Positions 20,956 to 40,500 of a DNA stretch of 64,000 nt are shown piece by piece. Every line of letters starts with the position of its first letter. Position 1 is the stretch's first letter. The position numbers and the translations under genes are program-made. The notes beneath the pieces are model-generated. The model was not told the origin of the DNA and did no database searches. It was given only the letters and a program-made list of their open reading frames with translations. Source of the stretch: Lysobacter sp. ISL-50 (GTDB lineage Bacteria; Pseudomonadota; Gammaproteobacteria; Xanthomonadales; Xanthomonadaceae); NCBI RefSeq assembly GCF_018612875.1, contig NZ_JAGGRI010000017.1:62001-126000 (forward strand). Reading direction: 5' to 3'.

Positions 20956-20966
20956 GTCGGGAGTCT

Positions 20967-22644: not shown

Positions 22645-23688
22645 GTGACATTTTCTTCACCCGGGCCGCGGCCCGGGACGAGCCGCGTTCCTGTCCCGGC
22701 CGACACGCGGCGCGCGCGCCATATCCTGGTCTGCGGCGGCGCCGGTTACATCGGCGCGCACGTCGCTTATGCGCTCGCGCAACAAGGATTCGAAGTCAGC
22801 GTGCTCGACAATCTGAGCACCGGCCATCGCGAAGCCTTGCGTTGGGGGCGATGGATCGACTCCGATCTGCTGCAGCCGCGATCGCTCGACGCCGCGTTCG
22901 CGCGGCAGGTCGATGCGGTGATGCATTTCTGCGCTCGCTCGCTGGTCGGCGAATCGGTAATCGCGCCTTACGACTATTACGACAACAATGTCGTGGGCAG
23001 TCTGAATCTTCTGCGCGCGATGCATCGGCACGGCGTTGGCAAGCTGGTGTTTTCCTCATCCGCCGCGGTGTTCGGACACCCGGTCGGCGAAAGAATCGAC
23101 GAAGCCCATCCCAAAGCGCCGATCAATCCCTACGGCGCCAGCAAGCTGATGGTCGAGCGCATCCTCGCCGATGCGGCTCAGGCCTACGGTCTGCGCTCGG
23201 TGTCGTTGCGCTACTTCAATGCGGCCGGCGCGGCGGTCGAGGCCGGCATCGGCGAATCGCACGATCCCGAAACCCATCTGATCCCCAATGTGATCCGTGC
23301 AGGATTGGGGCATGGTGGCGCACTCAACGTTTTCGGCGATGACTACGACACTATCGACGGCACCTGCGTGCGCGACTACGTGCATGTGCTCGATCTGGCT
23401 GACGCGCACATCCGCGCCTTGGACTGGATGGACGGCAACGAGGGCGCGCACAGTTTCAATCTTGGCAACGGCGCCGGATTCAGTGTGCTGCAGGTCATCC
23501 GCGCGGCATCGGTGGTGATGGAGCGCGATATCGATTATCGAACCGCGCCACGACGACACGGCGATCCCGCGGTGCTGGTCGCATCGAGCGAGGCAGCGCG
23601 CACCCATCTGGGATGGATGCCGCGTTTTGCCGATATCGAGCGCATCATCGAAAGCGCATACCGCTGGCATTGTGATCCTGCATTTTGA
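22645..23688 (+). CDS. galE: UDP-glucose 4-epimerase
   Basis: Extended short-chain dehydrogenase of 347 residues interconverting UDP-glucose and UDP-galactose. The NAD-binding glycine motif is GGAGYIGAH, the catalytic Y-x3-K is in NPYGASKLM with the serine in VFSSSAAVFG. The GTG start has AAGGA five bases upstream and produces a 28-residue basic/proline-rich N-terminal extension before the Rossmann fold; an internal start is not excluded. Position beside the exopolysaccharide cluster suggests it supplies UDP-galactose for repeat-unit synthesis. Confidence 0.95.
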   Translation: MTFSSPGPRPGTSRVPVPADTRRARHILVCGGAGYIGAHVAYALAQQGFEVSVLDNLSTGHREALRWGRWIDSDLLQPRSLDAAFARQVDAVMHFCARSLVGESVIAPYDYYDNNVVGSLNLLRAMHRHGVGKLVFSSSAAVFGHPVGERIDEAHPKAPINPYGASKLMVERILADAAQAYGLRSVSLRYFNAAGAAVEAGIGESHDPETHLIPNVIRAGLGHGGALNVFGDDYDTIDGTCVRDYVHVLDLADAHIRALDWMDGNEGAHSFNLGNGAGFSVLQVIRAASVVMERDIDYRTAPRRHGDPAVLVASSEAARTHLGWMPRFADIERIIESAYRWHCDPAF

Positions 23689-23882
23689 GCAGCGGATGGC
23701 TTCACGAATGCCAGTCGCCCTGGATGGGTCATGACATGAACGGGGGCGGAGCCGTCCTCTCCCTAGCGTCCTTCATTGGCCCCTCAGAAGGTTTGAATAG
23801 GGGTTCGGTTGCGACCCAAAATCGCCCTTATCGGCTGAGGAGACTCGCGCTCCTTTTGGCATCAAATACCGACTCACCTCAA

Positions 23883-23925
23883 CCCCCATTCGCCCCCAAC
23901 AGCCTCCAGCCACCCCCATTCGCCC
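23883..23925 (+). repeat. 30-nt-period C-rich direct repeat, left copy
   Basis: CCCCCATTCGCCC occurs at 23883-23895 and again at 23913-23925, a period of exactly 30. It immediately precedes the attachment-like sequence. A related arrangement with the same period lies at 39882-39926, next to the distal attachment-like repeat. Confidence 0.6.
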
Positions 23926-23927
23926 GT

Positions 23928-23963
23928 CAAGGGGGTTTGAACCCGGTTCCCGTGGCTCCACCA
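23928..23963 (+). repeat. attachment-like sequence ending in GCTCCACCA (diverged copy)
   Basis: The 36 bases share 26 positions with the last 36 bases of the direct repeat at 39812-39876, including the start CAAG and the end GCTCCACCA. GCTCCACCA is the typical 3' end of tmRNA in many gammaproteobacteria and is a common target of integrases. The copy is diverged, so an old or secondary attachment site is more likely than an active one. Confidence 0.45.
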
Positions 23964-24242
23964 AACCCCAGCAGCGCTCATCGGCGCTTAAAGACCGCAT
24001 TGAATTAGGTGAGCATGGCGCCGGCGTCGTGGTATCCAATCAAGGATGCTGGGTAGAGAGGGTTCGTCGGGCGAACGCACGAAGTGCAGCAGGGGCGCCT
24101 GCCATGGCAGTCACGCAGAACGTAACGCGGAATTCTGCGAAGTGGTTGTCAGTGCAGGGATCGCTAGGGTTGGAGGCTGGCTATGTAAGCTTGACACGCC
24201 TGGTCCAAGTATCCGCCGAACTAGCAATACGGTTAACGGATA

Positions 24243-24893
24243 TCAGAATAGAGTTAGTTGATTTTCAGGTGACGCTCTCGATTTTCCTGGTCTGTACCAC
24301 CGTTTTCTCCACGGGATGAACGCAGGCTCGATCTCTTCTATGCCGTCAAATAAAGAGGATTGTACTCTTGCGATGAGGCCGATCCGTTTTATCCGATCTT
24401 TCACCGTGGCTGTTTGAATCCACAGTAGCGCAGCCAAGCCTTCAAAGTCCCAGTCCAGCCGGACGAGTAGTAACGCGTATGCTGCGGCTTGGGAGTAGCT
24501 CCGTTGAATTTTTGCGAGGAGCTCGTTACGTCCTTCAGCGGCAAGCAGTCGCATTTGCGGATCAGATTCGATTGGCGCGCTGAGCATGCGTGTGAGCATT
24601 GCTCCGAGGGTTTCGCGATCTTCGTCGTCTCCGTTTCCCAGTTTTACTGCAAAGCGGACGACCTTGTTCGCGTACTTCACCAGCCGGGAGTGGAGCCACG
24701 CGAGGAGAGTGTCTTGGTCGTCGGGATTTAAGAAGCGAAAGGGCTGGGCGCGCTTGGTACTGATTTCAAGAGCGACTAGCCATGCTTCTTGGACAAGATC
24801 GTCGTAGTCCAGTTCGCCGTTCGTACCTCGAGCGATCCGTTTCAGATCGCTTTTTCGAAGCTGAACGAAATGATGAAAGTCGTGTTCGAACAA
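24243..24893 (-). CDS. sigma-70-like (region 2/region 4) protein
   Basis: A 216-residue protein beginning at a TTG with a purine-rich stretch upstream. LDYDDLVQEAWLVALEI matches the sigma-70 region 2 pattern that contacts core polymerase, and the segment YALLLVRLDWDFEGLAALLW resembles a degenerate region 4 helix-turn-helix. Spacing between them is longer than in ECF factors. It is divergent from the Wadjet genes and inside the accessory region. It could be a sigma-like regulator carried by the element; direct control of jetABCD is only a positional guess. No anti-sigma partner is visible. Confidence 0.6.
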   Translation of the reverse strand: MFEHDFHHFVQLRKSDLKRIARGTNGELDYDDLVQEAWLVALEISTKRAQPFRFLNPDDQDTLLAWLHSRLVKYANKVVRFAVKLGNGDDEDRETLGAMLTRMLSAPIESDPQMRLLAAEGRNELLAKIQRSYSQAAAYALLLVRLDWDFEGLAALLWIQTATVKDRIKRIGLIARVQSSLFDGIEEIEPAFIPWRKRWYRPGKSRASPENQLTLF

Positions 24894-25171
24894 GGTCTCG
24901 CCCTTCGAACTTCGCGTTGAATCTCAAACTCCGTGCCTTCTATGTCCATATCACGACTAGGGGATGACACTGGCAATGCGTCGATATCAAGTGTGGTGTG
25001 TTGCGCATTCCTACGGCGCCAGGGCGGAGAAAGATGGCCGGATTAAGGCCCGTGTGCCGTTCATCCGAGTTTCCAGTTGTCTGTGGTCGTCTTAATCGGT
25101 GAGACGGAAGCGATTAAGATTCAAGATTGATGGCAAGGCCGCGGTGCCCGAACTCAAGGATGTGTGATTTG

Positions 25172-26596
25172 ATGCAGCAAGAGGACACTCCGCCGCTATT
25201 TGATCGGCTGCCGCCTGAGCTGTTCCGCCCGCTGGCCGCCAGCAACGCCCGCCGCTACTGGACGTTGCTTTGCCGGTTGATCGATGAAATGTGGGGCGAT
25301 GGGGGCCGCTCGCCAGGCGAGGAGGCGGCTAAGTCGGTAGTGGTACGCAAGGTCGAGACCCTACTGGCCGCAGACGATCCCTGGGACGAAGAGTTGGAAA
25401 CGCCGATCGGCGTCCGAGCGCACGAGATCGTTCGCATCCTGGCCGAGTCCGGTTGGCTCAGCCAGCGCCGCCGCGGGGTCGTCGAGATGATCACCCTGCG
25501 TCCGGTCATCGCCCAGTTCTACAACGTGCTGTGCGAGTTCTCCTGCCACGAACCCGAGTTTCTCGGCAGCAAGGTCCGTTCGATCTATTTCAATCTGCGT
25601 GCGGTGGCCAACGGCGAGGCCAGCGGCGACCAATACGCCGAGGCGGCCAAGCAGGCCAAGCAATGCATGGCCCATATTGCCAACACCGGCTGCCGGGTCC
25701 AGGACCTGATGGAAGAACTGCTCAAGAGAACTAGTGCGCGCGAGTTCGTACGCGGCTTCTTCGAGGAGTATGTCGAGAAGGTCTTCATCGCCGACTACAG
25801 CGAGCTGCGCACGAAGGACCACCCGCTGCAGCACCGCTCGCAGATCGTAGCTATGACCCTGCAGCTACAGCACGATCCGGATCGACGCAGCACGCTCACC
25901 GCTTGGTACCAGGAAAAGAAGGCCGGCGGTGCTGCTGCCCGCGCCGAATACCTGTACGAACGCGACACCCGGTTGCTGTTGCGCCTGAAGGATGTGGACG
26001 AGCAACTGCAGCGGCTGGATGAGGAGATCCGCGACGCCAACCAGCGCGCGATCGCCTTCATCGAGTACAAGATGCGCGCGCCCAAGCACCTGGACAAGCT
26101 GCTGGCCCGCGCCCTGCAGGCCAGCGACCGCCTCGCCGAGGGCCACCTGGCCCTGCCCGCGGCCTGCGGCGTCCGCCACGCCGGCCCGGAACTGCTCGCC
26201 AGGGCGCGCGCAGCGCAGCGCCCGGCGCTGGCGACGGCGGTGGAAAAGCATCCACCGACCCTGCAGGAACTGGCAATGGAGCAGTTGCGCAAGCGCATGG
26301 CCGACAACCGCCTGGTCGACAAGGTGAAACTGGCCAATTATTTGGTCCGCCAGTTGGCCGGGCGCCAGGCCGTCACCTCCGACGACTTGCGCATCGATTC
26401 GATTAACGACCTGTGCTGCTACCAGCGCCTGTTGCTGATCGCCGCGCACGGCAGTTGTCCGCCGTCGCAGCGCCGCAGCGATCCGCAACTGCAGATGCTC
26501 AAGGGCGTGCGCATCGACTTCCTGGCCCGGGGCACCACCCGCAACGCCTATCTCGAACATCCCCGGTTCCACATCCAACGCGAGGACGCCCGATGA
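25172..26596 (+). CDS. jetA: Wadjet subunit JetA (MksF/kleisin-like)
   Basis: A 474-residue protein opening LFDRLPPELFRPLAASNARR, the characteristic start of the JetA family (DUF5716), which replaces DUF3375 in type II Wadjet systems. Helical winged-helix-like N-terminal and C-terminal parts flank coiled-coil segments (RLLLRLKDVDEQLQRLDEEI), as expected of a kleisin that bridges SMC heads. The start MQQED is chosen for AAGG ten bases upstream; ATG codons at 25130 and 25160 are alternatives. It is the first gene of a four-gene overlapping operon. In known Wadjet systems the JetABC complex extrudes DNA loops and recognises small circular plasmids. Confidence 0.88.
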   Translation: MQQEDTPPLFDRLPPELFRPLAASNARRYWTLLCRLIDEMWGDGGRSPGEEAAKSVVVRKVETLLAADDPWDEELETPIGVRAHEIVRILAESGWLSQRRRGVVEMITLRPVIAQFYNVLCEFSCHEPEFLGSKVRSIYFNLRAVANGEASGDQYAEAAKQAKQCMAHIANTGCRVQDLMEELLKRTSAREFVRGFFEEYVEKVFIADYSELRTKDHPLQHRSQIVAMTLQLQHDPDRRSTLTAWYQEKKAGGAAARAEYLYERDTRLLLRLKDVDEQLQRLDEEIRDANQRAIAFIEYKMRAPKHLDKLLARALQASDRLAEGHLALPAACGVRHAGPELLARARAAQRPALATAVEKHPPTLQELAMEQLRKRMADNRLVDKVKLANYLVRQLAGRQAVTSDDLRIDSINDLCCYQRLLLIAAHGSCPPSQRRSDPQLQMLKGVRIDFLARGTTRNAYLEHPRFHIQREDAR

Positions 26597-27192
26597 GCCA
26601 TTGGGAACGACTGGCCGCCCAGAACCCGGCCTACGCCGAAAGCGACTACCAGAAAGCCGGCTACCGGCTGGTCATGGAGCAGGTGCTGTACGCCAGCGAC
26701 CCGCGCAGCCGCATCGCCTACGAACTGGTGGTCCGGCACCGCAAGGAATACGAGACCCTGCTCACCCAGTTGGGCATCAGCATGGTCCACAACCCGCACC
26801 TGGGCTATCTGGTGGCCACACCCAGCCAGTACGTGGCGGAGAAGATGCGCCTGACCGAAACCAGACTCGCCCTGGTCCTGCGGCGGCTGTACGACGACAA
26901 GATGCACGCCACCGAAATCGTCGCCGGCGAAGCCTTCGTCGACATGATCGAGCTCGAGCGCGCCTACAAGGACCTGCTCAACCGCGAGCTGCCGGTCACT
27001 TCCGCGCTCAATGAACAACTGCAGGCGATGAAGCGCTACGGGATCGTCCGCCTGGAGGACAGCCGCGACGAGCAGCGCGTGCAACTGGCGATCCGCCCGG
27101 GCATCGTCGACGTGCTGGGCGAGACCGCCCTGCTGCAGCTGGCCGCGCATGCTGTTTCTCAGGAAGAGGAAGACGCCGATGAAGCAGCTTGA
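26593..27192 (+). CDS. jetB: Wadjet subunit JetB (MksE-like, DUF4194)
   Basis: A 199-residue protein of two winged-helix-like halves, with RKEYETLLTQLGISMVHNPH, ATPSQYVAEKMRLTETRLAL and ALNEQLQAMKRYGIVRLEDS as the DUF4194/MksE landmarks. Its ATG overlaps the jetA stop (ATGA) and its 3' end overlaps jetC by 14 bases. In MukBEF/MksBEF-type complexes this subunit forms dimers that bind the kleisin. The order JetA-JetB-JetC-JetD is the standard Wadjet order. Confidence 0.9.
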   Translation: MSHWERLAAQNPAYAESDYQKAGYRLVMEQVLYASDPRSRIAYELVVRHRKEYETLLTQLGISMVHNPHLGYLVATPSQYVAEKMRLTETRLALVLRRLYDDKMHATEIVAGEAFVDMIELERAYKDLLNRELPVTSALNEQLQAMKRYGIVRLEDSRDEQRVQLAIRPGIVDVLGETALLQLAAHAVSQEEEDADEAA

Positions 27193-30100
27193 AGGCTTAG
27201 GGATGGTCCAGTACTTCCTGTACGAACGCGAGGACCTACAACTGGGCGGCAACACCGCGTTTCTTGGGCCCAACGGCACCGGCAAGACCGCCTTGCTGGA
27301 CGCCTTCCAGATCGTGCTGCTGGCCGCCGACAGCAACAAGACCCACTTCAACGCCTCAGGCGAAGGCAAAAAGCGCGCCCGTTCGCTGCGCGAGTACTGT
27401 CTGGGCATCTACGGCCAAAGCGATGTCGAACGCTGCCGGACTTCGGCAAATACCTACATCAACCTAATTTTTCGCGACTCGGAAAGTGGCATTCCGATAA
27501 CCGCCGGTGTGTCGCTCTCGGCCAACGCCGAAGATCAGGACCACAGTTTCAACAGTCTCTACATCCTGCCCGGCGTGGCTTTAGCAACCCAGGATCACGT
27601 GGATCCAGGCGCCGAGAGGGAAACGATCCTGCCCTGGCGCAAGTTCCAGCACGTGGCCAAGGACGCATGCACGCTGGCCGGCACCACGCCGGTGTTCACC
27701 CAGAACCGCGAGGAGTTTCTGCGCCAGCTCTTCATTGGCCACCTGGCCTCACCCGGCGAGCGCCCCAACACTCGTGCCATTCGTTCCGCCTTCGCCCGTT
27801 CGCTCAAGCTCAACAAGGACGTGGACGATCTCGACGAGACCCTGCGCCAGCACTTGATCGAGCAGCGCCTGACCAATGTGAAGGCGTTTCGGGTCCGCCT
27901 GGAGCAGTTCCGCGAGGTGCGCGAAATGATCCGGCGACTGGTCGAGCGCATCGACCGCGCTAGCGCCGTGGCCGATCGTTACACCCAGGTCAAGCGCGAA
28001 CGCACCACCCACGCCAATCTCGACGCGCTGCACGCGCTCTACGAAACCGAACGCTTGTCCGAGCTACTGACCGAACAACTGGATAAGGCTGAGGAACTTC
28101 GCGAGCAGTTGCAGGCAGCCAGCTTGGACCTTGGGCGCGCGGAGACCGAAAAGGCTCAGGCGCAGGACGCGCGCGAACGTGCGCAGCGATTGCTGTACAG
28201 CGACCCTGATTACCTGAAGCAGGCCGGCGAATCCGGACGCGTGAAGGACAAGCAGGACCAGCACGAAAGCACCCGCAAAGAACTCGCCAAGCTGCTCAAG
28301 CTGGCGCTGGAAACGGCGGTCGGCGCGGGAAAACTCCCGGCGATGTCCAACCGTCGCGGGGAGTTCGAAGATGCCGTCAATCAACTGCTCGAGCTGCAAC
28401 TGCAGGCCGATGAGCTGCAGGCGCCGCCGCCGGCCGCGATCCGATCGGCAATGCAGGCCATGGCCCAGGTGCGCGGCTTGGTCGCCAAGGCCCTGGCTGG
28501 CGCCACCCGCGATGCCGACAAGGCCAAGGACGACGCGCACGACGCCAGAACCGCATGGGAACGTACCCAACGCGGCCTCGCCCCGTTGCGCCGTGAAACA
28601 CTCGCCTTGCAGCGCCTGCTCGACGATGCGGGGATCGAGGCCAGGCCGATCTGCGACCTGGTTGCGATTGCCGACCCGCAATGGCAGCCGGCGCTGGAAG
28701 CCTACCTGGGCATCCACGCCGACGCCCTGTTGGTGCCCGAGGCACGGGAGCTGGATGCTATCCGGGTCTACAAGGAGCACAAGGACGCCCGCAACATCTT
28801 CCGGGTCAAGCTGGCCCTACCCTCGCGCGGCCAAGCCTGGCAGGCGCGCAGCGGCGGCAAGTTCGCCGCGCAGTTGATCGAAAGCGAAGACCGCGCGGCG
28901 ATGCGCTACCTCCAGGGTGAGCTGGGACAGCTCAACCTCGCCGGCAGCGCCGAACAATTGCAGGTCGGCCGCAGGGCGCTGTCCAGCGACGGCATGGTCA
29001 GCTCCGGCGGCGGCGTAGAACGCCTTCGGCTGCCCGCCCGCAACGACCTGCTGATCGGCCGCGGTGACAGTCAAGCCCAGCGCGAGGCCGCCTACGCTGC
29101 CCACCAGCAGGCCGAGGCTGCGCTAAAACAGGCCAACGACCTGGTCGCGCAACTCGCTCCGGTGGAACAGCGCCTGGCGCTGTTTGCCGATGTGGAGACC
29201 ACCTATCCGCAGTTGGAGACGCTGTTTACCACGGCGGAGGCAGGCAGCCGCGAACTGCGCGAGCTGCAGGAAGCCTTGGCTTCGACCCAGTCCGATCAGC
29301 TGAGCGTGTTGAATTTCAATTCCGAGCAAGCCGGCAAGCGCCTAGCCGGCGCCGATTCCGAGGTAAAGCGCCTGGTCGGGCACCTGTCGACGCTGAACGC
29401 CGACGCGAAAAACGTGGCGGGGCGCATCGACGGCCTGACCCAGCGCCAGGGCTTGGCCGCAGCGCACGAAGCCCGGACCCGCCAGCATCCGCTGTACGGA
29501 GCAAACGAGGTCCAACGCCATCGCACTCGCTACGATGAGCGCCACGGCGACGATTGGGATGAGCGCTTGAATGCTCTGCACTCTGCGAGGCGGAACGCCG
29601 AGGCGGCGGCGAACAATCACGACCGCGATGCCTGGGAGAAATTCAGCGTCTATCTACGCGATTTCCAATTGCAGAACATCGCCATTGCCAGTAACCAGTG
29701 GGAGCGCGCCTACCAGTACATTCTTGAGGATAGGCAGCGTCTGGTGGACCTGGAACTGGCTGACCAGGAAGCCAGGTCGCAGGAAGCCTACGAGGCCGCG
29801 GTGAAGGTATTCCGCACCGACGTGGCACAGACCCTGCTGGAAGGCTTCGACGCGATCGAGGAGCAGATCGGTGGTTTGAACGAGGTGCTCAAGCACGCGC
29901 CGGAGTTCAGCAACGGCGAGCGCTACCGCTTCAAGTACGCGCCCGTCGAGCAGCACCGGCCCCTGTACGACTTCCTCAAGCGCGTGCGCGAATTGGGAGA
30001 TATCGAGGAGGATCTGCTCGACAGCCCGGGCAAGGTGCCGGAGGAATTCAAGGCCTTGATCGAGGGCGACGTCACTTCCGAGCTGCTGCACGAAACCAGC

Positions 30101-30601
30101 CCGCTCAATGACCACCGCCGGTTCTTCAGCTACGACGTAGAGATATTCACACAGAACAAGGCGATCGGCCTATTGAGCAAGCGTCTGGGGCCAGGCTCCG
30201 GCGGTGAGCACCGCACGCCCTTGTATGTGATCTTCGGCGCGGCCTTGGCGGCAGCATACGGCAAGACCCGCGGTAGCCGGACTGGCGGAGGGATCATGCT
30301 GCTGGACGAGGCGTTCGAAAAAATGGATGCGCAGAACGTGCGCGCCACCGCCGACTACCTCAACGCGCTGGGCCTGCAACTGGTCATGGCCGGGCCCGAA
30401 GCCGACCAAGCCAAGATGTCGTCGTTCCTGAATATTTACTACGATATGGCGCGCTACGGTTCGCGCACCGTACAACTGACCCAGAACATCGTTCTAGACG
30501 AGGCGCGCGAACTGCTGCAGAGCGACAACTATCTGCTGCACCCAGAACTGCTGGAGCAGACCATGGCGAAGATCGCGGAAACCGAACGTGCACTTGGCTG
30601 A
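27179..30601 (+). CDS. jetC: Wadjet SMC-family ATPase JetC (MksB-like)
   Basis: An 1140-residue SMC/MukB-like ATPase. Walker A is GPNGTGKT at residues 30-37 in the N-terminal head; the C-terminal head has the signature GPGSGGE near residue 1003 and Walker B GGIMLLDEAFEKMD near 1037. Between them run two long coiled-coil arms separated by a hinge-like globular region around residues 480-640. All ATPase hallmarks are intact. The start is fixed by GAGGA eight bases upstream; it overlaps jetB by 14 bases and jetD overlaps its end by 14 bases. Function in the family: ATP-driven loop extrusion on incoming plasmids. Confidence 0.95.
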   Translation: MKQLEGLGMVQYFLYEREDLQLGGNTAFLGPNGTGKTALLDAFQIVLLAADSNKTHFNASGEGKKRARSLREYCLGIYGQSDVERCRTSANTYINLIFRDSESGIPITAGVSLSANAEDQDHSFNSLYILPGVALATQDHVDPGAERETILPWRKFQHVAKDACTLAGTTPVFTQNREEFLRQLFIGHLASPGERPNTRAIRSAFARSLKLNKDVDDLDETLRQHLIEQRLTNVKAFRVRLEQFREVREMIRRLVERIDRASAVADRYTQVKRERTTHANLDALHALYETERLSELLTEQLDKAEELREQLQAASLDLGRAETEKAQAQDARERAQRLLYSDPDYLKQAGESGRVKDKQDQHESTRKELAKLLKLALETAVGAGKLPAMSNRRGEFEDAVNQLLELQLQADELQAPPPAAIRSAMQAMAQVRGLVAKALAGATRDADKAKDDAHDARTAWERTQRGLAPLRRETLALQRLLDDAGIEARPICDLVAIADPQWQPALEAYLGIHADALLVPEARELDAIRVYKEHKDARNIFRVKLALPSRGQAWQARSGGKFAAQLIESEDRAAMRYLQGELGQLNLAGSAEQLQVGRRALSSDGMVSSGGGVERLRLPARNDLLIGRGDSQAQREAAYAAHQQAEAALKQANDLVAQLAPVEQRLALFADVETTYPQLETLFTTAEAGSRELRELQEALASTQSDQLSVLNFNSEQAGKRLAGADSEVKRLVGHLSTLNADAKNVAGRIDGLTQRQGLAAAHEARTRQHPLYGANEVQRHRTRYDERHGDDWDERLNALHSARRNAEAAANNHDRDAWEKFSVYLRDFQLQNIAIASNQWERAYQYILEDRQRLVDLELADQEARSQEAYEAAVKVFRTDVAQTLLEGFDAIEEQIGGLNEVLKHAPEFSNGERYRFKYAPVEQHRPLYDFLKRVRELGDIEEDLLDSPGKVPEEFKALIEGDVTSELLHETSPLNDHRRFFSYDVEIFTQNKAIGLLSKRLGPGSGGEHRTPLYVIFGAALAAAYGKTRGSRTGGGIMLLDEAFEKMDAQNVRATADYLNALGLQLVMAGPEADQAKMSSFLNIYYDMARYGSRTVQLTQNIVLDEARELLQSDNYLLHPELLEQTMAKIAETERALG

Positions 30602-31760
30602 GGACGTCCTAGCCGGCTTGCTGCAACGAGGTGAGCGCGCCGTGTTGCGCGGCTCGGATCGGGTTATCCAGACCCGCTTCAACGCCGCGGATTCGCTGTA
30701 CTGGCGCCAAAGCTACGAACAGCGCCAGCGCTGCCATCTGCGTTTTGCCGAGGCCGAACGCGTTGGCGCAGTAACACTGCACTGGGCCAAGCATGGCGGC
30801 GAAGACCGGCCGCTTGAAAGGGTGCGCTTGGTCGAACTCGGTCGGCTGGCGTCCTTCCTCGGCGTCGCTACCGTATCTGACGCGGTGCGCGCGGCGAAAA
30901 CAACTTTGGATCCGTGGTTGGATGGATATCCTCGCGCGGCAGAACTGCTCGACGCCTGGACCAAGCTGAAATCGCCGCGCGGACTAGGCAAAGACTGTGC
31001 CGCTGACTTCGCCGACGCCCTGCGGGTGTTGGATGCATTGGCGCAGGATGGTGGTCAGGATCAGATCGTCCGCGTTCTGAGCCGCAGTTTGTTCCGCGAT
31101 AGCAAGCGGATCGAGGCGCTCTGGCGCCACGTCGATCTGTTGACCGGTGAACATTTAGGCTCCCCGGCGAGACAGCAGGAGGAGGTGTTCAGCGCGCTGG
31201 GTCTAGTCAAGGCGCCGCAACCGTTCCTGGTCGCTGGCACCGGCAGCCTGCAGCTGGCGCCAACGCAGACTTGCGCAATCGCGTGGCCCTTCATCGGCGT
31301 ATCCAACCAGCATGTAATGGGTTACGCCGGAGCGCCGGCCTGGGTACTGAGCATCGAGAATCTGACCACCTTTCATCAAGCGAGCCAACATCCGGATGCC
31401 GCCTCCGGTTTGGTGCTCTACACCGGAGGCATGCCATCACCTAGTTGGTGCCGCGCTTATGGTCGCATCTTGGAAGCGGTTCCCGGGCGGATCCAGGTTT
31501 TCCATTGGGGCGACATCGATCAGGGCGGATTCCGGATCGCGGCGCATCTAAAGCGCAAGTGCGTCCAGCGACATGCCTTTCTTCCTTGGTTGATGGATGC
31601 GAACGATCAGGATCGCGAAGCGGCGTCCGACGTAACCGAAGACGCGCGTCGAAACATGGCGCGGCATGCCCATGAAGCGGGGTGGAATGCGCTTTCTCTA
31701 TGTATGCCCGCTCTCAAGATCGAGCAGGAGGGAATTGAGCTCTATCTGCCGACGAGCTGA
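30588..31760 (+). CDS. jetD: Wadjet nuclease subunit JetD (DUF3322/DUF2220, Toprim)
   Basis: A 390-residue protein with an N-terminal DUF3322-like part and a C-terminal Toprim-type nuclease domain. The metal-binding glutamate is seen in LSIENLTTF (about residue 254) and the D-x-D in FHWGDIDQGGF (about residue 307). JetD homologues cut circular DNA after the JetABC complex has extruded the loop. The GTG start overlaps jetC by 14 bases, so translation is coupled. With intact catalytic residues in both jetC and jetD the system looks functional. Confidence 0.92.
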   Translation: MHLAEDVLAGLLQRGERAVLRGSDRVIQTRFNAADSLYWRQSYEQRQRCHLRFAEAERVGAVTLHWAKHGGEDRPLERVRLVELGRLASFLGVATVSDAVRAAKTTLDPWLDGYPRAAELLDAWTKLKSPRGLGKDCAADFADALRVLDALAQDGGQDQIVRVLSRSLFRDSKRIEALWRHVDLLTGEHLGSPARQQEEVFSALGLVKAPQPFLVAGTGSLQLAPTQTCAIAWPFIGVSNQHVMGYAGAPAWVLSIENLTTFHQASQHPDAASGLVLYTGGMPSPSWCRAYGRILEAVPGRIQVFHWGDIDQGGFRIAAHLKRKCVQRHAFLPWLMDANDQDREAASDVTEDARRNMARHAHEAGWNALSLCMPALKIEQEGIELYLPTS

Positions 31761-32210
31761 CTAGGCCAGATATCGCCGAAACTCTGGGCGACTCAGTCGA
31801 GCGCCTCGCGTTGGTCGCCAAGATTTCCTCGAAAACCAAGTCAAGGCTTAAGCGGAGCTCCTCCACTGAGGGAGCCGGTGATCCCGGGCACGATTTGCGT
31901 AATGTCAGCGGCGCGGTGGGATCTCGGCCAAGCGGATGGTGGTCGGACTAATAGTGCGAAGGGCCGCCGGCTCGTTGACGCCGCTCAATTGAGTGCGTTG
32001 GGGCCCTGGGGTTCCGCGGACGTCAGCCATGGCTTTGATCCATTTCGGGAATAGACGATTGCGGTCAGGAGGTCGCTCCGGAACAGCAGCCCGCTTAACC
32101 CGGTAGGCAGGCACTGCCCACCACAGCCCCGTTTAGGTCGCTAGCCAGGATCTTACCCGCCGGTAACTCATGCGCGAGCTGGCTACAAGGAGCGCATGAT
32201 CCAGATAACT

Positions 32211-32275
32211 CTAGGTAACCGTGGGTGATCCTGGGTAATCAAGAGAGTTGGATTCCGGTTGCTCAGGCTCCACCA
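32211..32275 (+). repeat. 65-nt direct repeat, attachment-like, copy A
   Basis: Aligns without gaps to 39812-39876. The central 30 bases (32233-32262) are identical between the copies and both end in GCTCCACCA. The two copies bracket the 7.5-kb compartment with the HAF-repeat genes and the ParB-methyltransferase remnant, as left and right ends of an integrated element would. Confidence 0.65.
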
Positions 32276-32587
32276 CTGCCCCGCGGTCAAATGCGCGCCT
32301 CCCCTCTCCGCGCCTCACGAAAACGCCTTATTTTCGGCCTTTTCGGCAATGGCCTTTGGTTTCGTGAAATCCAACGCGCCCGGTTTCTGGTGAAAATTTC
32401 GCCGAATTTTCTCCGTTTTCTCCGCACCTTTGGACCGCGAACCAAAGCCGCCATTTTTCCGAGTCTTACGAATCAATGGGTTAGCTTTGGACTTATCACG
32501 CAAGTTTTTTCGCCATCAACCTGCCAGCCAGAACACTCAACTCGAAACCACGGTCCGAGAGTGCTGAGGCTAAGCGCCGCAGCAGTC

Positions 32588-32640
32588 GTTTAAAAACATC
32601 AATTATTGGTCGGAGGTTCGAACTCCTCCCGGTGCGCCCA
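32588..32640 (+). other. degenerate tRNA-Lys-like 3' fragment
   Basis: The stretch from the TTT-containing sequence through ATCAATTATTGGTCGGAGG, GTTCGAAC and CCTCCCGGTGCGCCCA resembles the anticodon-to-acceptor half of a bacterial tRNA-Lys. The T-loop has eight rather than seven bases, and no matching D-arm or 5' acceptor strand precedes it. It is best read as the 3' tRNA fragment left by a tRNA-targeting element, not as a working tRNA. Confidence 0.4.
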
Positions 32641-32898
32641 CGACTACCCAGTTCAAACCAGTCTATTCACTCTGGGGAGCCTTGGGGAACAATAGGCTGT
32701 CAGCATTGAGGATCGGTCGCCGGACGACCCAAAGCCCTCGCCGCAGCCAACCGGAGCCCAATGGAGTAAGCGCCTCACCTTAATTATCTGGACAGCCGCG
32801 TCGCCTCCACACGGGCGATCGAGATCGGCAAGTATTTATCCTCTTGAGGCTGTGGTCGAGGCAACATCGCTGGGCTGGAGCAGAGGCGGCAGTTAGTG

Positions 32899-33078
32899 TC
32901 AGCCGCGAATTATCGGAGCAAATAGCGCCAGTGCGTTCCCCCGGTTCTGCCCGAAATAGTGCTCGGCAAATACATCGAAAAGCTGGCGAGCGATGTGCTC
33001 GCGGGATTGGGTGGCCTTCACCGTGCGAATGTGATCAATCACCGCAGCGACCGCCAGGGCAGCATCAAATCAAGATCG
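32899..33078 (-). pseudogene. possible decayed coding fragment, unrecognised
   Basis: The minus strand reads about 58 residues without a stop, including TVKATQSREHIARQLFDVFA and EHYFGQNRGNALALFAP, ending at a TGA (complement of 32899-32901). The residue composition is protein-like, but an in-frame stop lies just upstream and there is no start with a ribosome-binding site. I do not recognise the family. Confidence 0.22.
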
Positions 33079-33278
33079 ACATCAGGGATACGGAAGATCA
33101 GCCACGCCTATTTGCCAAGAGCAGCCAAGACGCATACGAGCTTGCGCAGAGTAGTTCTCATCAATTTATGGAGCAGCAGGTCCACGGCATAGGAAGCGTA
33201 AGTCAAGCGGCGCACATTCCGAAGTAGGTGCGACGTTTAGCAGAATCTCAGTGATCGATCGATGACATCCTGATCGCG

Positions 33279-33356
33279 TTGCGTCGTTGAACATTTCGTC
33301 GCAACGACGCAACGACGCAACGACGCAACGACGCCGCGACGCCGCGACGCCGCGAC
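33279..33356 (+). repeat. inverted repeat leading into seven 8-nt tandem repeats
   Basis: Seven 8-base units run from 33301 to 33356: four GCAACGAC followed by three GCCGCGAC. The sequence TTGCGTCGTTG at 33279-33289 is the exact inverse complement of 33302-33312, so an 11-bp hairpin with a 12-base loop can form at the left edge. No spacers exist, so it is not a CRISPR array. Confidence 0.75.
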
Positions 33357-33624
33357 ACAGCCGCGATGTGCGGGCGCGCCACTGAGCCGCCGCCCTTGCC
33401 TCACTCTCGTAGGACGCGGCCCACACGCACCGACACGGCGCGACGTCGGGCCATAAAATCGGCGGGTCCTACCTCGCCGAGTCGGGGTGCGGGGGGCAGC
33501 CGCCAAATGTGGCTAGCGTCCGGCCATGAAACTCGGTTTGCACCGCAAGAGTTTGCATGAGGCTTGCGGCCTGCTGCAAAAGAACGCCCTGAACCTAACC
33601 CCCTCCCTCGGGAGGCCCCAACGA

Positions 33625-35010
33625 CTAGCTCTCTTTGCCACTCTTCATTATTCGACACGTTGATTGGATTTCCTGGGGAAATAAGTCGCAGTTCGGTCCG
33701 CCTCCAGCTGACTTGGAGCCGCCGTTGCTCTCGAACATCAGAGGTGTAAGAGCCCGGGGTGGGGCCGATCCGCTCTGTCGCAACTTAGTGGCCGTGACGA
33801 TGTAAGCATGATCGAATCCCATCGCCGTCTGGCTGGTCCCGACCTGGTATAGGCCATTGTCGCTGAGCGCACTCGAGCGACTGGTAAATCCGCCGAGCGT
33901 CGGCACCTCGGTAATTTCGGAGGTCGGCGACCAGACAAAGGAGCGCGTCAACCCCAGGGCATTCTGGGATGTGCCGACCACCTTGCCGTTGTCCGCGATG
34001 TCCTTCGCGCGTGTCCAGTACCCGCCTAGCGTTCCCAGGTCCAAACCAGACTCCGCGGCTGGGTTATTGAGGGGCGCCCACACGAACGCATAATTACGCC
34101 CATCGTCGGACAGGTAATTGCCGACAATGACGCCCACCTCGTTCATGTCTATTGCCTGGAGTTGTTGGCGCGTGACGCCATCGCCGTCTAGATCCGTGAG
34201 CCATGTCAGGCGGCGTCCATCCGGAAACCATCGAACCGCCGCGAGATCGCCTTTCTCGTCATGGCAAGTGCCTGCGACATTCAAGTTGGAATTTACCGAG
34301 ACGGCCATGCAATTAGTGCCACCTGGGATTTGCGGTAGTTCACGCGCTCGATAGCCCAACAGCTGTGGATCCCAGCGAATCGCCACCGAGCCGCCATCAC
34401 GAAGATCACAGGTGCCAACAATCACTGGCTCGGCCGAGTCCTCCAAGTCCGCAATGCTGCATTCTGTGCTGCTTGGCAGAAGTGGTGGCAGTAGGCCCAA
34501 TTCCGGAAGGGACTTGGCCTTGCTGGTATTGGCGGCCCACATCACCGGGGTCTTGCTGCCGTCCGCGGCGATACTCTCTCCGACGACCACGCCGGTGTGA
34601 CTGATGGCGATCGCGACCGCCTTGGCGTGCGAGGCTAGCGGATCGAGCCGCTGAGGCGCGCGGCCTGGCAGCGACGCCACCCAACGGACGGGGAAATACT
34701 CTCCGTTACCGCCAGAGGTGCAATTGCCGGCGATCACACCAGCATTATTAATGTCGTAGGGCTCACAGCTGCCTCCGCTCTCCAACGGTGTCAACGGTAA
34801 CGGATCAGCCTCTCCAGCGGGCCAGTACACAGGAACGACATCTCCATCAACGCTACGGCACGTGCCAATAGATTCACCGCGGTTGTTGGTGTTTAAGCTT
34901 CGACAAGTGTTGCCCCCCAGCGTACCCAATTCTTCCATCCCGGCCCTTGCTGGCGCCAAAGAGGTCACAAGAAGTGACAGCAAGATCCAACTCGCGGTTG
35001 ATAGTTTCAC
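33625..35010 (-). CDS. secreted HAF-repeat protein
   Basis: A 461-residue protein starting at GTG with GGAG six bases upstream and a Sec signal peptide (WILLSLLVTSLAPARAG). The mature part carries repeated HAF-type units of the form LGTLGG...S.A..IN..G.VVG: for example ELGTLGGNTCRSLNTNNRGE, DLGTLGGYWTRAKDIADNGK and TLGGFTSRSSALSDNGLYQV. Such repeats are predicted to build a beta-propeller-like extracellular domain of unknown function. Paired cysteines per blade (CRS, SCEPYDINN, NCTS) suggest disulphides. It is one of three paralogues here and is divergent from the ParB-methyltransferase remnant. Confidence 0.85.
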   Translation of the reverse strand: MKLSTASWILLSLLVTSLAPARAGMEELGTLGGNTCRSLNTNNRGESIGTCRSVDGDVVPVYWPAGEADPLPLTPLESGGSCEPYDINNAGVIAGNCTSGGNGEYFPVRWVASLPGRAPQRLDPLASHAKAVAIAISHTGVVVGESIAADGSKTPVMWAANTSKAKSLPELGLLPPLLPSSTECSIADLEDSAEPVIVGTCDLRDGGSVAIRWDPQLLGYRARELPQIPGGTNCMAVSVNSNLNVAGTCHDEKGDLAAVRWFPDGRRLTWLTDLDGDGVTRQQLQAIDMNEVGVIVGNYLSDDGRNYAFVWAPLNNPAAESGLDLGTLGGYWTRAKDIADNGKVVGTSQNALGLTRSFVWSPTSEITEVPTLGGFTSRSSALSDNGLYQVGTSQTAMGFDHAYIVTATKLRQSGSAPPRALTPLMFESNGGSKSAGGGPNCDLFPQEIQSTCRIMKSGKES

Positions 35011-35273
35011 GTTTCGCTCCTCGAATGGCGAAGCTCTTGCTTACGCTGATCCGGTCGGGCCGACCGTGAAAGAATTCAGCTTTTGTCCAACAAAGTTGAT
35101 TGCTCACCTTCAAGAACCAAAGCTCACTGGAGCTTTGTGATGGGCATAGTTCCCAGTTTCATGCAGATGCGATCTGCGGCGGGTACTTGAGTCCGCGACC
35201 TGCTGTCCCGAACACCGGGTTTGGCACTTCGCCCACTGAAACTATCATTCGACAGCCTCATTCCGAGTAACGA

Positions 35274-36449
35274 TTGAACCTCCACATCGAACGACGCTCC
35301 GTCGGCGCGCTCATTCCGTATGCGCGCAACGCGCGCACGCACTCCGACGCGCAGGTCGCCAAGATCGCGGCGAGCATCGTAGAATTTGGTTGGACCAACC
35401 CGATCCTGGTTGATGGCGACAACGGCATCATCGCCGGCCATAGCCTGTTGCTCGCCGCACGTCAATTGAGCTTCGACAAGGTGCCGGTCATCGAACTGGC
35501 GCACCTGACCTCGGCGCAGAAGCGCGCCTACGTCATCGCCGATAACCGACTCGCCGAGAACGCGGGTTGGGATGAGGAACTGCTGCGGCTGGAACTAGCT
35601 GATCTACGCGATCACGATTTCGGCCTGGACTTGCTCGGCTTCACCGATGACGAACTGGATGAACTGCTGCTCGACGGCCACCAGGCCGGCTAGACGGACG
35701 GCGACGAGGTGCCTGAAGTGCAGGAGCAGCCGGCCTCCCGTCGCGGCGACGTTTGGATTTGCGGTAGCCACAAGGTGCTGTGCGGCGATGCCACTCAGGC
35801 GGATGACTACGCGGCGCTGCTCGGCGACGAACTGGTGGACATGACCTTCACCGATCCGCCCTACAACGTCGGCTACGCCAACAACCCGAAAGACAAGCTG
35901 CGCGGTAAGCATCGCCCGATCCTCAACGACAACCTGGGCAGCGATTTCGGCGCATTCCTGGAAGCGTGTTGCACGCAGATGGTGGCCCTGACCAAGGGCG
36001 CGATCTACATCGCCGTGTCATCGTCGGAACTGGACCGGTTGCAGTCGGCGTTCCGCGCTGCCGGCGGTCGGTGGTCCACCTTCATCATCTGGGCCAAGAA
36101 CAAGTTCGCCACGGGGCACGCTGATTATCAGCGGCAATACGAGCCGATCCTCTACGGTTGGCGGGACGGCAATGATCGGTTCTGGTGCGGCGCGCGCGAC
36201 CAGGGCGACGTGTGGTTCATCGACCGCACCAGCAAGAACGGCCTGCACCCGACCATGAAGCCGGTAGCGCTAGTCGGGTGGCGGGAAATAATTGTCGTCC
36301 GTCTGCCCCACGATCCACTGCTCCTGAGCGGCGACGCGTGGCTGGTGCCAGCGATCGGCGGCAGATGGACCGTCTCGGCTCGCGTTGGCCAGCGCTCTAA
36401 TCACAATTCGAAGAAGATCTGCCAGCAGCTTGGCTGCGCACATTGTTGA
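35274..36449 (+). pseudogene. broken ParB-domain/DNA methyltransferase gene of phage or mobile-element type
   Basis: Residues 1-139 are a ParB/Srx nuclease-like N-terminal domain (RRSVGALIPYARNARTHSDA, DGDNGIIAGHSLLLAARQLS), then an amber codon at 35691-35693 interrupts. In the same frame 15 bases later a DNA methyltransferase continues with GDVWICGSHKVLCGDATQAD and the catalytic DPPY (TFTDPPYNVGYAN). Intact relatives are single ParB-methyltransferase proteins of about 420 residues. After HPTMKPVALV the expected DPFxGSG region is replaced by unrelated sequence, so the S-adenosylmethionine-binding motif is lost. Both changes argue for a dead gene. Such genes are common next to terminase genes of prophages, none of which is seen here. 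Confidence 0.85.
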
Positions 36450-36647
36450 AACGTGCTTTAGCGTGAGTTGTCAGTGAGGAACGGTGATCGAGAGTCGAAA
36501 TGCAATCGGCATCACTTCATTACATAGTGCCTTGATCAACCATCGACTTATGCGCATCCAGCGAGGCTGGTCTGTACGGAATATTCCTGCAAGTCACATA
36601 GGCACGCGCGATGCGTGCCGTCCTTCGGCTGCTCTCGGAGATTGCAT

Positions 36648-37886
36648 ATGAGAACGATGGCACACACCCTTATTTTTTGCTCCGCTGCGGCCCTTCTCGG
36701 AACGGCACCGCACGCAAGAGCAGCTGCCGTCTTCGACGTGCTTGGACTGCCTTCTTGTGTTGCGATCGGGGTGAACGATTCCGGCGAAGTCCTCGCGAAA
36801 TGCGCTATCAGCGAGGCAAACGGCCTCTATCGGATTCCGTTGTTTGGGCCGAGGGTACGCCTTCCTATTGACACATTTTGTGGCGTTGCGGGGATCGCCA
36901 ATAATGGTGTCGTGTTCGTCAATTGCCCCGAGAATGATAGACTGCGCGGGTACGTTTGGCTGCCTCAGCAGTCCACCCTCCTGCCCCTGAAGCCAGTTTT
37001 CGGGCACGAGCGGGCTACCATCTCGGGTTTCAGCAGTAAGGGCGTTGCGATCGGAACGTCCGTCGATCAACGAGGCAATGCCTATCCCGTGTTATGGCGA
37101 GACCCGACCGCCCGGCCGACAGAACTAAAGGTTGGGCTGTTAGGAACTGAAGGTCGCAATTGCGTGGCTATTGGTGTCGAGAAGGACAATGCGGTCGCCC
37201 CCGCAGTGACTGGAAGTTGCGTCGCTAACGGTGGCGAGGTTCGAGTTCCCATTGTCTGGAAGCGCGACTCGCTTCTACTGACGTATCGGGCCCACAAACT
37301 TGCATATCCAGACACTGAGGATGATCCGGATCAATGCGATGCGCTGGGAATCGCGGGTGATATCGTCGTCGGCAGGTGCGCCGGCGATACAGTGCACACC
37401 GTCGCTTGGGACTCAAGCACTGGAGATCCTGAAGTCCTGGATACGACCGCGGACGGCGAACCGTTCATTTTTAGCAACCTCACCGACGTGGCAATCGATG
37501 GAGGGGTCGCTGGCTACGCGCTTGTAGCTAACGGAGGCGCCCGGCCGTTCATCTGGTGGCCGAAAGACGAAGAGCTCAGTTGGTACCCGGATCCTTCAGA
37601 TCCCGATCGCCCGAATTACAACGTTATTCCTAAGCGTTACGTCGTAAACAAGGCTCTGATCGGAGAGATGGAAGTATACGATTCTGGACATCCGAGCTGG
37701 CCGACCAAAGTTCTATTCCGATTGAACTTGGCTAATGGCGTTCGCGAAAACCTCGGCATTCCGCCGGAATTTCGCTCTATGGAGGTTACGACCATTTCGG
37801 AGTCGGGTTGTTATGCGTCCGCAACCGGCCTGAGGGCGCCGACCGGCAGGATCCCCGAGGTTATACGCGTGCGGATGTGCCCTTAG
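36648..37886 (+). CDS. secreted diverged HAF-repeat-like protein
   Basis: A 412-residue protein; the ATG start has GGAG seven bases upstream and begins a signal peptide (MRTMAHTLIFCSAAALLGTA, cleavage near HARA). The mature part follows the same plan as the other two HAF proteins in this region (FDVLGLPSCVAIGVNDSGEV, CGVAGIANNGVVFVNC, NCVAIGVEKDNAVAPAVTGS, DQCDALGIAGDIVVGRC) but with fewer canonical HAF motifs. Base composition is visibly less GC-rich than that of the paralogue at 38143. Function unknown; exported. Confidence 0.75.
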   Translation: MRTMAHTLIFCSAAALLGTAPHARAAAVFDVLGLPSCVAIGVNDSGEVLAKCAISEANGLYRIPLFGPRVRLPIDTFCGVAGIANNGVVFVNCPENDRLRGYVWLPQQSTLLPLKPVFGHERATISGFSSKGVAIGTSVDQRGNAYPVLWRDPTARPTELKVGLLGTEGRNCVAIGVEKDNAVAPAVTGSCVANGGEVRVPIVWKRDSLLLTYRAHKLAYPDTEDDPDQCDALGIAGDIVVGRCAGDTVHTVAWDSSTGDPEVLDTTADGEPFIFSNLTDVAIDGGVAGYALVANGGARPFIWWPKDEELSWYPDPSDPDRPNYNVIPKRYVVNKALIGEMEVYDSGHPSWPTKVLFRLNLANGVRENLGIPPEFRSMEVTTISESGCYASATGLRAPTGRIPEVIRVRMCP

Positions 37887-38142
37887 GCGATCTTCGTGTC
37901 CGCGCGCTTGGGCTTCTTCGGCGAGGCCGGTGCAGTGGGCGCGGGCGGCGCGGCGTCGGTCCCGGGGGCGGTGCATTCAGTCTGTCGGCTGCCCTGTCGA
38001 GGATGTTGAAAGAGGCGGCTCTTATGCTCACCGATCCTCATACTGTGACGAGGCCGGGGAATCTCCGCGTTGCGCTGGATAACACTGAGCGAAATGCGTC
38101 GCCGAAGTTGCCAATCGCATCTCGCCCAAGCTGGAGTACGCC

Positions 38143-39756
38143 TTGCGCAAAAGGATATCGCTGGTCGCCTTTGCGCTATTGGTGGGCGCAACCCCCGGCG
38201 CTGCAGCGCCCACCGCGCTGGGCGTGCTCGGCGGCAACACCTGTCGCGCGATCGACGTCAACGACGGCGGCGCAGCGATCGGCGACTGTCGTACCGGCGG
38301 CGGTGACTTCGTCCCGGTCTACTGGCCCGCCGCCGGCACCGGAGCCCTGGTCCTGTCGGCATTGCTGGACAACGGCGCCTGCAACGTGGTCGGCCTCGCC
38401 GAGGACGGTGCGATCGGTGGCAACTGCGATTGGGGCGACACCGGCGAACAGGCGCCGGTGCGCTGGGCGGCGCCGTCGCTACCGTCGATGCGGCCGGAAA
38501 TCCTCAATGCGCGCACCGGCGACGACCGCGCAGAAGCCCGGTTCGTCAATGCCGCCGGTGCCGTCGCCGGAATCAGTACCACCCCCGGCGGCAAGGATCA
38601 GCCGGTCGTATGGAAGGGCGGACAGCGTGTGGCGACCGCGCTGCCGGTGCCCGGCCTGCTACCGCCGTTGCTGTCGCCGGCGACCGAGTGCAGCGTTGTC
38701 GCCCTGAGTCCCGCGCCGACGCCGGTCGCGGTGGGTCTGTGCGAGTTGCGCCGCGGCGGCGTCGCGGCGGTGCAATGGACGCCCAACGCGCTCGGCGGCT
38801 ACAGCGTGAACGTGCTGCCGGGCCTGGCCTCCGGCGCCGATTGCACGGCTGTCGCGATCAATGGCGCAGGCCAGATCGCCGGTACCTGCGAGGACGAGAC
38901 CGGCGATCTCGTGGCGGTGCGCTGGAGCGCAGCGCAGGCGGTGCCCGCGGCGCTGCGCGGCCTGCCGCGCGAGGCGGCAGCGGGGCAGCAACTGTCCGCG
39001 GTCGATATCAATCAAGCCGGCATCGTCGCCGGCTACTACATCGACAGCGCCGGGCGTTCGCGCAGCTTCGTCTGGGCGCCGAGCCAGGATCAGACGAGCG
39101 AGGACGCGCTCGACCTGGGTACGCTCGGCGGCGCCGGTGTATTTGCGCGGCAGATCGCCGACGACGGCCGCATCGTCGGTTCGGCCGAAAATGCGCAGGG
39201 CGCAGAAGTCGGCTTCGCCTGGGGCCCTGGAACGGCTATCGCCGACCTGGGCACGCTCGGCGGCCGCACCAATTCGCCCGCCGCTATCAGCCGCAGTGGC
39301 CAGTGGATTGTCGGCACCAGCACGAACGAGGTGGGGCAACGGCGAGCCTATAGAATCGGCCCGGAGCGGCGAGGCGCGGTTACTGCGTCTGCGCAGCGGG
39401 GCCTAGCGCGAACCGCGTACCGGTATCGCGCGTCGGTGCTGCTGGAACCCGCGCCCTCGTCCTCATGCCAAGACTTGGCGGCGGATTGTCCGGCACGCGC
39501 ACACCTGTGCAACGACTCCAACTACTACGCCCTGATGACGGCACAGTGCCCGAGAACATGCGGCCGATGCCCGCAGTACCCGCCTGGTGGCGCCGCGTCG
39601 GCGCTATTCGACGGACCGCCCTCTTGCGAAGATAAGGTACCTAGTTGCAACGCCAACGCTAGCCTGTGCCACAACAGCGCCTACTACACGCTGATGACCG
39701 ACCGGTGTGCGAAGACCTGCAATCGTTGTCCGCAACTAGCCTACGGAATTCGTTAG
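38143..39756 (+). CDS. secreted HAF-repeat protein with two C-terminal ShKT domains
   Basis: A 537-residue protein starting at TTG with GGAG six bases upstream. A signal peptide (ISLVAFALLVGATPGAAA) precedes HAF repeats (LGVLGGNTCRAIDVNDGGAA, DLGTLGGAGVFARQIADDGR, DLGTLGGRTNSPAAISRSGQ). The last ~90 residues are two six-cysteine units: CQDLAADC, HLCNDSNYYALMTAQC, PRTCGRC, and then CEDKVPSC, LCHNSAYYTLMTDRC, AKTCNRC. The spacing C-x6-C-x6-C-x10-C-x3-C-x2-C and the YYxLM and TCxRC features match the ShKT domain. ShKT is mainly known from animals, where it often blocks channels or sits in secreted enzymes; its role here is unknown. Confidence 0.87.
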   Translation: MRKRISLVAFALLVGATPGAAAPTALGVLGGNTCRAIDVNDGGAAIGDCRTGGGDFVPVYWPAAGTGALVLSALLDNGACNVVGLAEDGAIGGNCDWGDTGEQAPVRWAAPSLPSMRPEILNARTGDDRAEARFVNAAGAVAGISTTPGGKDQPVVWKGGQRVATALPVPGLLPPLLSPATECSVVALSPAPTPVAVGLCELRRGGVAAVQWTPNALGGYSVNVLPGLASGADCTAVAINGAGQIAGTCEDETGDLVAVRWSAAQAVPAALRGLPREAAAGQQLSAVDINQAGIVAGYYIDSAGRSRSFVWAPSQDQTSEDALDLGTLGGAGVFARQIADDGRIVGSAENAQGAEVGFAWGPGTAIADLGTLGGRTNSPAAISRSGQWIVGTSTNEVGQRRAYRIGPERRGAVTASAQRGLARTAYRYRASVLLEPAPSSSCQDLAADCPARAHLCNDSNYYALMTAQCPRTCGRCPQYPPGGAASALFDGPPSCEDKVPSCNANASLCHNSAYYTLMTDRCAKTCNRCPQLAYGIR

Positions 39757-39811
39757 GGCCGGTCGCAAGCTGGCCTGATCGCCAGTGAGCCGATGATGAT
39801 TTCAGATATCG

Positions 39812-39876
39812 CTGGATAACCGTGAGTAACTCAGGGTAATCAAGAGAGTTGGATTCCGGTTGCCCACGCTCCACCA
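39812..39876 (+). repeat. 65-nt direct repeat, attachment-like, copy B
   Basis: Ungapped partner of 32211-32275, with a 30-base identical core at 39834-39863 and the common end GCTCCACCA. It lies 55 bases after the HAF-ShKT gene and marks the apparent right end of the second compartment. Confidence 0.65.
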
Positions 39877-39881
39877 ACCCT

Positions 39882-39926
39882 CATTAGCCCTCACTGACCT
39901 CCGCTGGCCCCCATTAGCCCTCACTG
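39882..39926 (+). repeat. 30-nt-period C-rich direct repeat, right copy
   Basis: CATTAGCCCTCACTG occurs at 39882-39896 and 39912-39926, period 30. It follows attachment-like repeat B directly. Its period and its CCCCCATT-like wording resemble the repeat at 23883-23925 near the other end of the accessory region. Confidence 0.6.
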
Positions 39927-40500
39927 GCCCCACTATCCCTAAGTGGTCCCATAAAGAAAGCTTGCGGACGGCGGCGACTGCCTGCGAAAGATTGGGCGAT
40001 TCACTTTGTCCACGGCCACTCTTGGTGGACCTATCGATTCATTTAGCCGAAGCCGCTTCGCGGCCCGGCCTCGCGCGAGCCGCGCCCGAAGCAGGATGGC
40101 AATCGGACTCCTCATTTGTCGCTTTAGCCAGGGCATGAAAAAAAACACCCACGCATCGGTGGACTCCATGCCGAAGCTCGGGACAATCTCTGGCTCCAGG
40201 TTACTCATTGGCCCTGTATCCGAGCGTCCGCTCGGCTTCGTCTTGCGAGGTCAGCGCGATGCGCGAGAACGACGGTTGAAAGGTGCTGAGATTTCTATCG
40301 TCAATAAGCCGGACGACTTCGACAGGTTCGCGCCGGCCAGCGCGAGACACTTCAACGGTATCCCGAGCGTGGTCCATTGGCCGACCGGCAGCGACGTTGA
40401 CGACGGTGTCCGCCCCCGATGAACGTCGCGCAGATGCGCTGCTGCGGTGCGGCATCCACGCATTACACGGAGCAATGGCGTGACGCCGTAAGAAGTACAA

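Follow-up and report, generated by a model that had tools for sequence, protein, structure and literature searches.

A very probable Wadjet (JetABCD) plasmid-restriction operon in Lysobacter sp. ISL-50, filed as type I in the PADLOC scheme and carrying a DUF5716 kleisin

For the published Wadjet systems, the view given in PMC10586767 (see also PMC10123090) is that JetABC probably acts as a DNA extruder, that its two motors come together when the DNA is a small circle and JetD then makes the cut, and that linear or large DNA is spared. The Wadjet-I system treated in PMC12647877 is that of Escherichia coli GF4-3, and a type II structure from Neobacillus vireti (nvJET) is cited there; as described in that paper, the elbow-to-hinge segment of the nvJET JetC is much larger and its hinge has no notable central channel. 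The MksBEFG system of Corynebacterium glutamicum has been termed a Wadjet type I, and the account of its MksG subunit has metal bound by E236 and D279, with E349 and E351 corresponding to the proposed JetD nucleophiles (PMC10123090).

The locus described here lies in a 64,000-nucleotide stretch of the Lysobacter sp. ISL-50 genome (the window), and very probably represents a complete Wadjet (JetABCD) plasmid-restriction operon of PADLOC type I and of a DUF5716-kleisin branch, probably acquired horizontally and held under purifying selection, with its mechanism assigned by homology. With the type I systems of E. coli GF4-3 and Pseudomonas aeruginosa PA14 it shares the gene order, a MukB-like SMC ATPase, a KITE subunit and a Toprim JetD, and with the N. 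vireti system a JetABCD set that includes an SMC ATPase. The features are collected in Table 1. In the list of open reading frames the four jet frames are open from 25172 to 31760, all on the forward strand and with zero internal stops, and every one of them is matched by PADLOC Wadjet and Pfam models, in agreement with the preliminary description of a complete, canonically ordered, overlapping and unbroken four-gene operon. The best PADLOC scores were 692.7 (JetA1, PDLC00456), 250.3 (JetB1, PDLC00498), 1367.7 (JetC1, PDLC00513, spanning residues 1–1136 of 1140) and 469.5 bits (JetD1, PDLC00529). Pfam scores of 158.9 (PF18982, JetA), 60.0 (PF13835), 75.7 (PF13558) and 55.7 bits (PF09983, JetD_C) all exceeded the curated cut-offs; the SMC hinge family PF06470 was matched in JetC at 22.7 bits, barely above its cut-off of 22.5. 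An NCBIfam scan named none of the four proteins over its cut-offs. The check suggested earlier, an HMM search and a defence-system classifier, returned the expected PF18982, PF13835 and PF09983 matches, with PADLOC Wadjet models best for all four proteins: JetA scored best with JetA1 models and not with an unrelated family, JetD has its PF09983 match, and the proposed DUF4194 identity of JetB is upheld by its Pfam and PADLOC scores. PF18982 and PF09983 were each matched only here in the whole genome.

The list of open reading frames begins jetC at 27149, probably 10 codons ahead of the true start. The ATG at 27179 is taken as the start because the PADLOC profile opens there and because the JetC protein of a congener, G010, begins with the same MKQLE as the window JetC read from this codon. 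With this start the overlaps are 4 bases for jetA/jetB, 14 for jetB/jetC and 14 for jetC/jetD.

Table 1. Positions in the window of the jet genes and of neighbouring features
Feature	Coordinates	Strand	Remarks
Weakly sigma-70-like gene, divergent upstream	24243..24893	-	216 aa; candidate regulator, putative; PF04542 and TIGR02937 below cut-off
jetA, kleisin subunit (MukF-like), DUF5716/PF18982 form	25172..26596	+	474 aa; N-terminal PLFDRL motif; PADLOC JetA1 PDLC00456, PF18982
jetB, KITE subunit (MukE-like), DUF4194	26593..27192	+	199 aa; PADLOC JetB1 PDLC00498, PF13835
jetC, SMC ATPase (MukB-like)	27179..30601	+	1140 aa from ATG 27179; PADLOC JetC1 PDLC00513, PF13558, PF06470
jetD, Toprim nuclease subunit	30588..31760	+	390 aa, GTG start; PADLOC JetD1 PDLC00529, PF09983
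Accessory stretch between two G006-conserved blocks	23696..40044		operon, repeat-type proteins, broken ParB-methyltransferase
Frame with GTLGG-type repeats	33625-35010	-	
Prophage-type ParB-methyltransferase, two frames, end cut short	35274-35693 and 35709-36449	+	
Frame with two ShK stretches	38143-39756	+	

The catalytic motifs named in the preliminary description were all located. JetC carries a Walker A motif (GPNGTGKT at 30; N32, G33, G35 and K36), a signature motif (GPGSGGEH at 1004; S1007, G1008, G1009 and E1010) and a Walker B motif (IMLLDEAFEKMD at 1039; D1043 and E1044), and the residues listed are invariant in 15 JetC sequences. The JetD Toprim glutamate and D-x-D, E257 and D309/D311, are invariant in 14 aligned JetD sequences, as are E379 and E381. 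These residues are equated with the published MksG residues by motif: a PDB search with the JetD profile returned three rows, and the one relevant row, MksG in 8b7f, pairs with the D-x-D and E-x-E segments of JetD but is not significant (E 0.36). The jetABCD operon of Lysobacter silvestris AM20-91 (locus L002, also found as genome G064) has the same gene order, with identities of 82% for JetA, 80% for JetB, 75% for JetC and 67% for JetD, the least conserved of the four. With pN/pS against this relative at 0.22 for jetA (473 codons compared), 0.22 for jetB (199), 0.27 for jetC (1138) and 0.34 for jetD (390), purifying selection apparently acts on all four genes.

JetC matches (E 1e-10) were found in 14 of 149 genomes of relatives, the strain's own included. 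Within the genus they are confined to two of 20 genomes, the strain's own (G000) and G010; the remaining matches range from 75% identity (L. silvestris) down to 30%. A 21-row JetC tree joins the window copy to L. silvestris (support 100/100). Dyella and three Pseudomonas sequences cluster with this pair (99/99), and support falls to 86/78 at the fork excluding Dyella. The G010 copy clusters with L. gilvus, L. tolerans and Rhodanobacter (100/100), away from the window copy. This placement and the patchy occurrence of JetC among congeners suggest that the operon was probably acquired by horizontal transfer. A phage or plasmid origin was considered and set aside, as no carrier element was found among viral contigs, phage records or plasmid records: single-protein queries of viral contigs, whose reach is limited to close relatives, turned up nothing related to either JetA or the sigma-like gene, phage records contained no relative of JetD, and the 14 JetC matches in plasmid records are all distant, none of them spanning 80% of the query. 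A JetD profile match lies just downstream of jetC in nine of the 13 other loci; none was found in the 1.5 kb downstream of jetC in L022, L025 and L027 (genomes G071, G073 and G024), nor in L031, which stops at a contig end. In Stenotrophomonas maltophilia, jetD has been described as missing from most Wadjet I systems (PMC11680222).

The preliminary description correctly recognized JetA as the DUF5716 form, which its PF18982 score bears out, and took this to suggest a type II Wadjet. In favor of that assignment, this kleisin differs from the DUF3375 form, the one that recovered solved JetA chains; the other comparisons nevertheless make type II very unlikely. All 10 matching PADLOC models for JetA are JetA1 models, JetB, JetC and JetD likewise score best with label-1 models, and the label-2 models are far weaker (JetC2, 45.9 against 1367.7 bits; JetD2, 23.7 against 469.5 bits); the digit 1 in these names we take to denote type I. 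As a control, the DUF3375 JetA of a relative (L100, in G139) was also JetA1 in 12 of 12 matching models, so in PADLOC a type I system cannot be told from a type II system by the domain name. The three best PDB matches of the JetC profile were all chains named JetC. The best were 9qxt (1096 aa, 39.8 bits) and 8dk1 (37.7 bits), presumably the proteins of E. coli GF4-3 and P. aeruginosa PA14, each over some 60 N-terminal positions; 9qe0 (1371 aa) scored 25.6 bits over a C-terminal stretch. These matches are weak and short-spanning, 39.8 bits at most, and the scores for 9qxt and 9qe0 come from different short stretches. The chain lengths and the account in PMC12647877 suggest that 9qxt comes from the type I system of E. 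coli and 9qe0 from the type II system of N. vireti, and the window JetC at 1140 aa lies near the length of the former and not of the latter. On the PADLOC label-1 scores (nvJET being type II, the window's best models carry label 1, not 2), the DUF3375 control and the JetC PDB scores, the operon is filed as type I in the PADLOC scheme, in a DUF5716 branch.

Could the same genes serve the chromosome and not defence? JetABC is homologous to MukFEB, MksBEF of P. aeruginosa without JetD is reported to contribute to chromosome organisation (PMC10586767), and the three loci above without JetD near jetC, with the fourth that ends at its contig, would fit a MksBEF/MukBEF-like condensin. For the window this is extremely improbable, as jetD is present, keeps its catalytic residues, shares 14 bases with the end of jetC and apparently evolves under purifying selection, and JetC is absent from 18 of the 20 genus genomes searched, unlike a core segregation system. 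An operon with intact frames may also be silent or decaying, that is, unexpressed in its host. A broken prophage-type gene lies within a few kb, and a simple scan of 24850-32300 found zero sigma-70-like promoters; such a scan overlooks many genuine promoters, with only 0.7 sites expected by chance, and the apparent purifying selection on all four jet genes makes silence unlikely. The preferred reading is that JetABCD is apparently a functional type I Wadjet and an ordinary member of its family.

If the operon works as the published systems do, dimers of JetC with JetA and JetB would assemble into a dimer-of-dimers motor that extrudes DNA loops. On a small circular molecule extrusion would run to completion until the two motors meet, and this meeting would activate the JetD Toprim nuclease to cut the molecule. 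Neither the chromosome nor linear DNA would be cut. Extrusion, size sensing, cleavage and the resulting plasmid loss are ascribed to the window operon by this analogy. With an intact Wadjet the strain would be expected to turn away small circular plasmids, a point that bears on its transformation and on the way such genomes are kept free of plasmids.

The kleisin differs from that of the solved systems: the JetA chains presumed to be those of the E. coli GF4-3 and P. aeruginosa PA14 type I systems answer to a DUF3375 JetA and not to the DUF5716 JetA of the window. Searches of the PDB with the DUF5716 JetA, by sequence and by profile up to E 1, matched no JetA chain, whereas a DUF3375 JetA matched the JetA chains of 8dk1, 8q72, 8as8 and 9qxt. 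Direct comparison of the two JetA profiles gave no similarity (probability 0.4% and 0.7%, the profiles being shallow), and single-sequence PDB searches with JetA, JetB, JetC and JetD matched nothing relevant. Because JetA is unmatched to the solved JetA chains, transfer of the mechanism to the DUF5716 branch rests on JetB, JetC, JetD and the gene order. PF18982 was matched in none of 14 control genomes; the C. glutamicum control has a DUF3375 match and no PF18982 match, in contrast to the window. A literature search on DUF5716 returned no on-topic paper as judged by title, and one combining Lysobacter and Wadjet returned none. A DUF5716 kleisin with no JetA match in the PDB by sequence may be a new point, and this branch offers a possible test of the loop-extrusion and cleavage model, which was built on a different kleisin, and of nuclease switching. 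The JetA opening noted in the preliminary description was found as a PLFDR-like motif at 25196-25207, with P8, L9 and F10 invariant in nine JetA sequences. This motif of the DUF5716 clade sits at the N terminus of JetA; the IFDR motif that contacts JetD is placed at the N terminus of JetB in a review (PMC10586767).

The gene upstream of jetA encodes a weakly sigma-70-like protein, with matches to PF04542 (E 0.0017) and TIGR02937 (E 0.0028) that both fall below cut-off. No sigma-70 match was found in four scanned homologues, that of L. silvestris included, so the term sigma-like is to be read as a lead. The L. silvestris homologue (L002, 7116-7925, +) is also directly upstream of jetA; it is co-directional with jetA, whereas the window gene is divergent. 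The two proteins belong to one family of 216 to 269 aa (37% identity over 116 aa). Homologues occur in five of the 149 genomes, and a role as a general Wadjet partner is not supported, as three of these five (G018, G021 and G065) are outside the 14 with a JetC match. In seven related loci (L003, L004, L005, L007, L008, L009 and that of G010, L096) the position directly upstream of jetA is held by a divergent WYL-type gene, with PF13280 confirmed in six and L009 outside that scan. L005/L009 and L008/G010 are near-identical pairs, so the seven loci amount to about five lineages. No WYL gene precedes jetA in L006, the window or L. silvestris, and no match was found in L010–L016, which are distant or short. 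In the window and L. silvestris, then, a sigma-like family gene occupies the slot that a WYL gene holds in the seven related loci, which may be a further new point; phage defence systems with adjoining WYL regulators have been described (PMC9122601). The upstream sigma-like protein may, speculatively, control jet expression. In G010, a gene matching the OLD family comes after the WYL gene.

The kleisin and the regulator slot can be read together, doubtful as this joint reading is: DUF5716-kleisin Wadjets would make up a second kind of type I, structurally unexplored, whose kleisin has no recognisable sequence relationship to the one studied; in this clade a sigma-70-like protein (window and L. 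silvestris) would have taken over the control position beside jetA from WYL, so that a sigma factor of its own, and not a WYL sensor, may switch this Wadjet on.

The operon was earlier placed in an accessory region, and comparison with the congener G006 agrees with this. Contiguous synteny covers 20253-23695, just past galE, at 93% and resumes at 40045 at 95%, leaving a gap of 16.3 kb for which G006 has scattered short matches and a methyltransferase (85%, at 5.49 Mb). The blocks flanking the gap are located at 4.05 Mb and 2.00 Mb of the 6.06-Mb G006 record, about 2.05 Mb apart; since the two positions sum to approximately the record length, they would fit an inversion centred on the start of the record. 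The six congeners compared show four arrangements on the downstream side of galE (G004 and G008; G005 and, in part, G017; G006 alone; G002 alone), and this region is a variable junction. DNA at 35274-36276, in the ParB-methyltransferase region, is kept in five of six congeners searched. No integrase was found among those frames of the accessory stretch that were scanned. Repeats ending in CTCCACCA (~23956, 32268 and 39869) were considered as attachment sites for a tmRNA 3' end and dropped: when the genome's tmRNA 3' end was compared with the window, only the ~39869 copy of the three was among the best-scoring places, and its score of 27 does not exceed the range of maxima (21–27) from ten composition-keeping shuffles and is lower than that of a minus-strand match elsewhere (28). 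The frames with GTLGG-type repeats and ShK stretches we take to resemble HAF-type extracellular repeat proteins. A 74-nt repeat, with copies at 32202-32275 and 39803-39876 (85% identical), recurs on contig C16 and in congeners, and the stretch 32270-32678 is 89% identical to DNA adjoining a tRNA-Met gene on contig C1.
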